Assembly: GCA_023249725.1 (NCBI GenBank)
Contig: JAHFBZ010000014.1
Location: 1-35,741, forward strand
Source of the DNA: Methanobacteriaceae archaeon
GTDB lineage: Archaea > Methanobacteriota > Methanobacteria > Methanobacteriales > Methanobacteriaceae
Direction: 5' to 3'
Length of the DNA: 35,741 nt
Shown here: piece after piece, positions 27,756 to 30,773 of the stretch
Layout: each line of letters begins with the position of its first letter
Numbering within the stretch: the first letter of the stretch is position 1
Position numbers and translations under genes: made by a program
The notes under the pieces: model-generated
Database searches by the model: none
Told to the model about the DNA's origin: nothing
The model's input: only the letters and a program-made list of their open reading frames with translations

Positions 27756-28238
27756 ATGGCAGATATTCAAGATAAAGTACAAAAATGGCTCGCTGATGAA
27801 GGTTATTTCAGACAAAAAGTTCCTGATGAAAATTCAAACTTTCACTTTATTATAAATTACCCTGAAAGTCATGTAATTGATGTTATTCAGCCAAAAGGGA
27901 AAGATGATATGGTAGTTATTGGCTGTGCCACAAATGTAAGTCCAGAACACTTAAGCCAGATGAAAAAAATGAATTCGGATGAAAAAGAAGAGTTCATATG
28001 GGAATTTAGATTTGCTCTTAATGGTTTAATGGTTGATTTTCAAATTCAACATCCTGAAAATGTTTTACAAAGCTATGTTGTAAGTTCTGAAATTTATGAA
28101 GATGGTTTAACCAAGGATAGATTAATTTCAAGTGTAAAAAGTATTTTTAGAGCTAAACTTCAAGGTTTATGGAAGATCCAGGAAAAATTTGGTGAAGTAG
28201 AGAAAGAATCTAGTCATCCAGATGGTATGTACGTTTAA
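27756..28238 (+). CDS. DUF2299 family protein
   Basis: This 160-residue soluble protein belongs, by its DEGYFRQKVPDENSNFHF and DVIQPKGKDDMVVIGCATNVSPEH segments, to the archaeal DUF2299 family. The function is unknown; the fold looks alpha/beta (YbjN-like). GGAAGTGAG precedes the ATG. It borders the origin and is divergent from cbiB, but its stable position next to the origin does not by itself imply a replication role. Confidence 0.75.
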   Translation: MADIQDKVQKWLADEGYFRQKVPDENSNFHFIINYPESHVIDVIQPKGKDDMVVIGCATNVSPEHLSQMKKMNSDEKEEFIWEFRFALNGLMVDFQIQHPENVLQSYVVSSEIYEDGLTKDRLISSVKSIFRAKLQGLWKIQEKFGEVEKESSHPDGMYV

Positions 28239-28396
28239 AAATTGTTTAATTTATTTAATTTTTGACTAAAAATAATTTTAAATTTAATATTAATTATAGT
28301 TCATTTTTTTTATTTTTTATTTAAATAAATCAATATAATTACTTTTTTACAAATGGCCAAATTATTTTCCTATTAATAATTTTTATATTTTTTCAA

Positions 28397-28675
28397 AGAC
28401 ATATATTTCCACTGTAAAAAAATCATGAAAATTCTTAAATTGAATTAAAATTAATTTTGATATTTCCTTAACAAGAGAGACCTATATTTCCACTGTAAAA
28501 ATTAAAACAAGCAAATAAAAATTTAAAGAGAGGTATATTTCAACTGTAAAAATTAATGCTGATTAATGAATACTAATGATTTTAATTAATATCAAAGTGA
28601 GAGATGAATTTCAAGTGTATAATTATAAAAAATACTTGTAAAAAAAATAGTGAGACATACATTTCAACTGTAAAA
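28397..28675 (+). repeat. Left ORB array, five elements
   Basis: Copies at about 28397-28419, 28477-28500, 28528-28551, 28599-28622 and 28652-28675, each reading GAGA..(T)AT(T/A)TTTC(A/C)A(C/G)TGTA. The fourth has the AAGTG form also used on the right side. They are expected Orc1/Cdc6 binding sites. Confidence 0.9.
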
Positions 28676-29117
28676 AATATTTATTATTAATTTTTTAATA
28701 GTTAATTAAAATAATTAATTTAAAAATTTATTTTCAAAAAATATTTGAATATTATATTATATTTTAATTTTTTAATTTAGATCTTAAAATAGATTTTATT
28801 TATTTTTTCAATTAATATTTATATTAAATATTTTTTATTTTATTTAATTTATTTTATAATTTCTTGAAACGTTTGTTTTAATACTATTTAAATAATTTGA
28901 TTTTTAGCAATATATATAATCAAAATAATAACAAATTTATTAGTAAATTAAATATTTCTAAGAAAAAAAACAAAATTTTATAATTATATTTTTTAATTTA
29001 AATCATATTATATTAAACATAAAATATTATTATCAATATTAATTTTTAATTTAAATTTTTTTATTACATAATAATGTCTTTATATTTTTTATTTTTTTAA
29101 TTTAATGTATATTCAAG
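28676..29117. other. AT-rich origin core, probable DNA unwinding element
   Basis: About 440 bases of almost only A and T between the two ORB arrays. The main GC-bearing point is an AAACGTTT palindrome at 28867-28874. It contains no ORF and is the likely site of duplex opening. Confidence 0.75.
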
Positions 29118-29396
29118 TTTCACTTGAAATTGATGTCTGTCTGAATTTTTTTGTTTAAATTTTTTTTGTTTACACTTGAAATTGATGTCTCAGTATAGAA
29201 TCTGAATATTTTTTTTGTTTACACTTGAAATTGATGTCTGTCTGAATTTTTTTGTTTACATTTTTTTTTGTTTACACTTGAAATTGATGTCTCTCATGAT
29301 AAAATATATATTTAAAAACATAAAAACATACAATTTTGAGCTTTCATAATAAAAACTTTTATTTGATAGTTTAAATAACATTTTTACACTTGAAAC
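29118..29396 (-). repeat. Right ORB array, five elements
   Basis: Copies at 29118-29139, 29169-29191, 29218-29240, 29271-29293 and a shorter one at 29383-29396, reading TTTACACTTGAAAT..GATGTCT on plus, i.e. inverted relative to the left array. The middle three are identical over 22 bases. A spacer starting GTCTGTCTGAATTTTTTTG occurs twice (29135 and 29236), showing a ~100-bp duplication. Confidence 0.9.
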
Positions 29397-29505
29397 TTAC
29401 CATCACATGAGTTATAAATAATTTCTATTTAAGAAGTCTATTAATTCAATTCAGAATTTCATTATTGATTATTAATTCTAACAGTGATTGGTGTTTAATT
29501 CAGGA

Positions 29506-29523
29506 GACCTTGAATATAAGGTC
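29506..29523. promoter_or_regulatory. Inverted repeat upstream of orc1/cdc6
   Basis: GACCTT and AAGGTC flank the 6-base spacer GAATAT, a possible operator or hairpin about 100 bases before the start codon. Confidence 0.4.
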
Positions 29524-29543
29524 ATCTAAATTTTTTTAAGAGA

Positions 29544-29568
29544 TACATGTCTTTTTGTACATGTCTTT
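29544..29568. repeat. Direct repeat TACATGTCTTT before orc1/cdc6
   Basis: Two exact 11-bp copies (29544-29554 and 29558-29568), period 14, each with an ACATGT palindrome. They lie between the origin and the gene and may serve autoregulation. Confidence 0.55.
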
Positions 29569-29624
29569 GTTAGAATTGGGGTAACAAATAAATCTCAAGA
29601 TTTTATATTGGATGTGTGATCTTT

Positions 29625-30773
29625 ATGAATATATTTGATGAGTTAGGGGATAAACAAACAGTATTTCAAGATAAAAAGTTTTTAGATCACAGATTTTTAC
29701 CAGACAAACTTCCTCATAGGGAAGACCAGATAAAATCTATAGCTAAATATTGGATAGAGGCCTTAAAGGAAGTTACTCCTCCAGATATTACTATTTATGG
29801 AAAAACAGGAACTGGAAAAACAGCTGTGGCTAAATTTGCAATGAAACAACTCAAAGAGGCGGCTAAAGAACAAGATATTAATATTAAAACAGAATACATT
29901 CGATGCACTGATTATACAACTGAATATCAGGTTATTGCTCGTTTATGTCAACAAATGGGGCGTGATGTTCCTTATCGAGGATGGACCAAAGCAGAAGTTA
30001 TAAATACTTTTAGAAATTTATTTAAAAAGAATGCTTTTGGTAAAGACTTGATTTTATTAGTTGTATTGGATGAAATAGATATTCTTCTTAGAAACGATGG
30101 TGATGGTCTTCTTTACACACTTACTCGTACGGATAATGTAGCAATATTATCAATTAGTAATTATGTTGATTTTAAAAAATTTATAAAACCTCGTGTTCGA
30201 AGTAGTTTAAGGGATAGAGAAATTGTATTCCCACCATATGGTGCTCAACAGCTGGTAGATATCCTTGAAGAACGTTCTAATTTATCTTTTAATGGAGAAG
30301 CACTTAAAGATGATGTAATACCATTGTGTGCTGCACTGGCTGCTAAGGAAGAAGGTGATGCTAGATATGCTTTGGATCTTTTAAGAACATCTGGTGAGCT
30401 GGCTGATGAAAAAGATTCAGAACTTGTTCTTGGTGAGTATGTAAGGGAAGCAAAGGATTATATTGAACATAATAAAGTCACTGACATCATAATGACTTTA
30501 CCAAGTCAACAACAACGTGTTTTGGAGTCAATACTTTATCTAACTAAAAGAAAAGAAGAAATAACTTCTGGAAGACTTTATGAGGTTTATAAAGACATTG
30601 CTCGTGGAGACACGGTTTCTTACAGAAGAATTTTTGACTTTATAAATGAATTAGAGATGTTAGGTCTAATTTCAACCAATACAGTTTCTAGAGGACGCGC
30701 AAAAGGAAGAACTAATATAATTGATCTTCAATGCGATACTGCAGTTCTTGAAGAGGCTATTTGGGGAATGTAA
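29625..30773 (+). CDS. cdc6: Orc1/Cdc6 replication initiator
   Basis: The 382-residue AAA+ initiator binds ORB elements and loads the MCM helicase. Walker A is [13 protein letters not shown] (about 58-70), Walker [10 protein letters not shown] (144-152), sensor 1 SISNYVDF, and [22 protein letters not shown] the sensor-2/lid region. The C-terminal winged helix (about 285-382) would contact the repeats. I chose ATG 29625 because GTGAT at 29616-29620 precedes it, whereas the in-frame GTG at 29616 is that very site. The adjacent inverted ORB arrays strongly support the assignment. Confidence 0.96.

Follow-up and report, generated by a model that had tools for sequence, protein, structure and literature searches.

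Inverted arrays of initiator boxes around an A/T-rich core very probably form the chromosomal replication origin of a Methanobacteriales archaeon

Results

The intergenic region upstream of orc1/cdc6 in the window (the whole stretch of 35,741 nucleotides from a Methanobacteriaceae archaeon that we analyzed) is very probably the chromosomal replication origin (oriC) of this member of the Methanobacteriales. The region adjoins the gene for the Orc1/Cdc6 initiator and carries inverted ORB elements, five (and one more) on one side and five on the other, around a core of ~93% A+T. A first-pass annotation had read the locus as the active oriC, and this reading is supported by a layout conserved across the order, by turns of the GC skew in the relatives G033 and G017, and by the match to a published ORB motif. 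That the origin is active is an inference, the organism's own genome being a draft of 143 contigs.

The intergenic boxes, ten in number, are 24 bp long. They have the core TTTACA[C/G]TTGAAA and the tail ATGTCTC, and the consensus derived from relatives is TTTACA[C/G]TTGAAAT-N-N-A-[T/C]-[C/G]-TCTC. The 13-bp core is an imperfect dyad, while the TCTC tail sets the polarity of the box, and every tail faces outward, away from the A/T core. The left arm occupies the minus strand, with boxes (from the innermost) at 28651..28674 (TTTACAGTTGAAATGTATGTCTCA, central G, likewise in 3 of 3 genus members), 28598..28621 (TATACACTTGAAATTCATCTCTCA, central C), 28527..28550 (TTTACAGTTGAAATATACCTCTCT, central G), 28476..28499 (TTTACAGTGGAAATATAGGTCTCT, central G), and 28395..28418 (TTTACAGTGGAAATATATGTCTTT, central G). 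On the plus strand, the right arm begins with the innermost box at 29117..29140 (GTTTCACTTGAAATTGATGTCTGT) and continues at 29169..29192 (TTTACACTTGAAATTGATGTCTCA), 29218..29241 (TTTACACTTGAAATTGATGTCTGT), and 29271..29294 (TTTACACTTGAAATTGATGTCTCT). Its outermost box, 29383..29406, has an exact 13-bp core and a mismatched tail (15 bits); the core and the bases directly after it are identical in two genus relatives.

When we searched the 1.38-kb intergenic region for TTTACACTTGAAA, we found 10 matches with at most 2 mismatches, compared with 0.33 on average and at most 3 in 200 first-order Markov shuffles of the same region, and 4 exact matches, compared with 0 in the shuffles. The ten related elements of the first-pass annotation, five per side and in opposite orientation, were thus confirmed. 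A 24-bp profile built from relatives gave 11 matches at or above 12 bits across the 35.7-kb window: the ten intergenic boxes and an eleventh, missed before, at 28115..28138 on the minus strand (20.7 bits), which carries the exact TTTACACTTGAAA core and lies within the coding sequence of the neighboring DUF2299 gene. Hence, the arrangement described as complete and as "5+5" holds for the intergenic boxes and becomes 6+5 once the gene-internal box is counted, with 11 copies between 28115 and 29406, 6 of them left of the core (minus strand) and 5 right of it (plus strand). The extended motif TGAAATNNAYSTCTC occurs exactly 5 times in the 2.4-Mb draft genome, every time at the origin locus, and its reversed control had 0 matches in the same genome.

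Within the right array (29118-29268), a stretch of 50 nt is duplicated almost exactly (96% identity, copies 101 bp apart), and the number of boxes at this place varies among genus relatives, which together suggest recent gain and loss of boxes.

The core between the arms (28675..29116) is the presumed duplex-unwinding element. Its length of 442 bp agrees with the 440 bp given earlier; with 93.0% A+T (measured over 28677-29117), it is A/T-rich but not almost pure A/T. In two relatives, G035 and G049, the middle of the core holds a weak box-like sequence, TTTTTTCACTT[G/A]AAACTTATGTT, at a place corresponding to 28800-28825 of the window, which reads TTTTTTCAATTAATATTTAT there.

As annotated before, orc1/cdc6 (29625..30773, plus strand) is directly downstream of the arrays, and begins ~220 bp beyond the last box. 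The start codon is the ATG at 29625; the mechanically called reading frame begins at a GTG at 29616. The product scored 410 bits against TIGR02928 (cut-off 181) and has a Walker A motif (GKTGTGKT), a lid domain (Cdc6 lid, PF22703), and a C-terminal winged helix (Cdc6_C, PF09079). Judged by these features, it is a standard Orc1/Cdc6 protein. Its best solved relatives, found with phmmer, are the Cdc6 homologues 2qby and 2v1u, both of which are structures with origin DNA bound. Between the last box and the gene, at 29500-29580, GACCTT...AAGGTC forms an inverted repeat and ACATGTC recurs; these sequences, largely kept in two genus relatives, are possibly a promoter or regulatory site of orc1/cdc6. 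Rfam and tRNA scans of the 35.7-kb window gave no matches.

We compared the locus with the origins of 69 genomes from ~17 genera and three families of Methanobacteriales. Boxes are present upstream of orc1/cdc6 in nearly all of them, usually in a left array that reads on the minus strand and a right one that reads on the plus strand; the exceptions are G039, cut short by a contig end, G069, with almost no boxes, and G040, with a scrambled pattern. Arms usually have 2-6 boxes. In most genomes the core measures 38-470 bp; this genus falls at 442-469 bp, genus g18 at 44-155 bp, and most g3 genomes at ~100 bp. Most spacings within an array are 47-53 bp, and 110 of 149 between boxes of the same orientation fall within 47-56 bp. 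No period near 10.5 bp, as helical phasing would give, stood out among these 149 spacings.

GC skew in relatives also points to this locus. In the closed genome of G033 (2.39 Mb, 50% sampled), the cumulative skew reaches its lowest point at 1.41 Mb, near orc1/cdc6 (1.371 Mb), and its highest at 0.21 Mb, roughly on the other side of the chromosome. The closed genome of G017 (1.751 Mb, first half sampled) has orc1/cdc6 at 1.278 Mb, and the skew peaks at 394-414 kb, the antipode of the gene being at 402 kb. In the near relative G072, from another genus of the family, the skew falls past orc1/cdc6 (111 kb on the 240-kb contig C14) and is low at ~135-140 kb, a loose turn, and in the genus relative G049 (contig C12, only 43 kb to the right of the locus) it is weak. 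The skew inflection by which the first-pass annotation expected an origin to be recognized was found, in relatives only, as a turning point at the orthologous locus in G033 and as the opposite turn at the antipode in G017. This is strong but indirect evidence that the orthologous locus is the origin.

The left neighbor of the origin is a DUF2299 gene (27756..28238, plus strand; PF10061, 154 bits), which bears the sixth left box toward its 3' end. The order of DUF2299 gene, inverted boxes, and orc1/cdc6 recurs in all three families; among the g4 genomes listed (presumably Methanosphaera), no DUF2299 gene was detected. The only close solved relative of the protein is 3cxj, an uncharacterized protein, and the family is not named in the literature that we searched. 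Seven DUF2299 proteins that we compared contain a KDRLIS[ST][VI]K stretch, and in genera g1, g9, g16, and g18 its codons spell the initiator box. In g19 and g5 the gene-internal box is absent, though a similar peptide is encoded. Resampling the codons with the protein held fixed gave approximate p values of 0.0016 for this genus, 0.001 for g16, 0.005 for g9, and 0/40,000 for g18, to be read with the profile including the genus's own boxes and the g18 codon table coming from few codons. These results suggest that the left array may extend into the DUF2299 gene.

The left and right forms of the box distinguished earlier, AACTG and CACTTG, for which a possible difference in affinity had been proposed, differ, in box orientation, by a swap of the central base between G and C. 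Here, G is present in 4 of 6 left boxes (the boxes at 28115 and 28598 have C), and C in 5 of 5 right boxes. Across 29 regions, the central base is G in 46 of 103 left boxes and 17 of 112 right boxes. The difference is clearer at the innermost position: of 66 genomes, 34 have G in the left box and 6 in the right. By genus, 9 lean toward G in the innermost left box, 1 leans the opposite way, and 5 are tied (p = 0.02 in a sign test without phylogenetic correction). We rejected a fixed rule by arm: the pattern is reversed in G072, G021 and G011 have only C in either arm, and in G003 the main boxes carry G on both sides. What stands of the earlier claim is confined to the innermost left box, where G shows a genuine tendency to occur, and does not hold for the arm as a whole.

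Discussion

If the locus works like other archaeal origins, Orc1/Cdc6 made from the adjoining gene would bind the 24-bp boxes, whose TCTC tails orient both arrays away from the A/T-rich core. The predominant array repeat of ~50 bp would suit cooperative binding of several initiators. By analogy with, for example, Sulfolobus oriC1 (PMC12141716), the bound initiators would recruit MCM helicases to the core, which would then be unwound for bidirectional replication. A change between C and G in the center of the box swaps the middle base pair of the imperfect dyad and is tolerated. We also consider, as a tentative and on balance doubtful idea, that the boxes are not interchangeable, the innermost left box with its distinct, lineage-conserved G marking one side of the origin, for example to order the loading of initiator or helicase, and the left array extending into the end of DUF2299, where codon choice would be constrained to keep an initiator box.

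The boxes could instead be operators through which Orc1/Cdc6 controls its own synthesis, with replication starting elsewhere. They do lie upstream of orc1/cdc6, the last one at the distance from the gene start given above, and transcription regulators are known among Orc1 paralogues (PMC9738581). However, one arm is more than 950 bp upstream, points in the opposite direction, and lies beyond the 442-bp A/T core, and the skew turns at the locus or its antipode in two closed relatives. Autoregulation would also be compatible with origin function, and we regard operators without an origin as very improbable. Slightly less probable still is that the main origin is located elsewhere and that this locus is a secondary or dormant one, or belongs to an integrated element. 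The genome does have a second, divergent orc1/cdc6 (26% identity, the only other copy), and contig gaps could conceal another array. Nevertheless, housekeeping genes are present on both flanks of the locus, the gene order is common to three families, and the draft genome showed only this one cluster of boxes. Box repeats were looked for around the second orc1/cdc6 and none were seen, and we rejected a second origin at that gene. Against the main reading, certain archaea, Thermococcus kodakarensis among them, do without their origin in replication (PMC5663688).

The chromosomal origin of another Methanobacteriales genome is thus placed with good confidence, and the variation of origins across the order is laid out. 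Two details can be tested, the uneven choice of central base at the innermost left box and the initiator box in a coding sequence; the constant place of DUF2299 beside oriC means that its function may merit attention; and a well-defined origin could aid the construction of replicating vectors for methanogens.

The origin type is already known, from the Ori-Finder 2 motif and from experimental study of the Methanothermobacter thermautotrophicus origin. Within the literature that we searched, novelty is limited to the view across the order, the asymmetry at the innermost left box, and the gene-internal box. The M. thermautotrophicus origin, with ORB and mini-ORB repeats, was described by Capaldi and Berger (2004) and Majernik and Chong (2008), as cited in PMC4010727; according to reviews, it has been shown experimentally (PMC3984812; PMC5333045), and the Cdc6 of this species binds cooperatively (PMC5333045). 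Like the locus studied here, it lies beside orc1/cdc6 and has inverted arrays of the same box, with DUF2299 on the left, as seen in g18, presumed to be Methanothermobacter. Unlike it, the g18 origins have a core of 44-155 bp and 12-14 boxes, compared with 442 bp and 11 boxes here.

The Methanobacteriaceae ORB motif of Ori-Finder 2 and DoriC, TT[TA]CACTTGAAAT followed by a [CT][CG]TC tail (PMC4164010, Table 1), is the same element as our boxes, and the earlier statement that the box core matches mini-ORBs of Methanobacteriales agrees with it. The right-arm boxes fit TT[TA]CACTTGAAAT...TC, and most left boxes fit apart from the central G. The published expression fixes a central C, whereas 28% of the boxes in the profile from relatives carry G. 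Sulfolobus oriC1 likewise has inverted Orc1 boxes around an A/T-rich unwinding region next to orc1 (ORB2-DUE-ORB3; PMC12141716). It differs in having three boxes and a 130-bp ORB3-DUE-ORB2 region on a chromosome with three origins (PMC12141716), whereas we found arrays of five or six boxes and detected one cluster.
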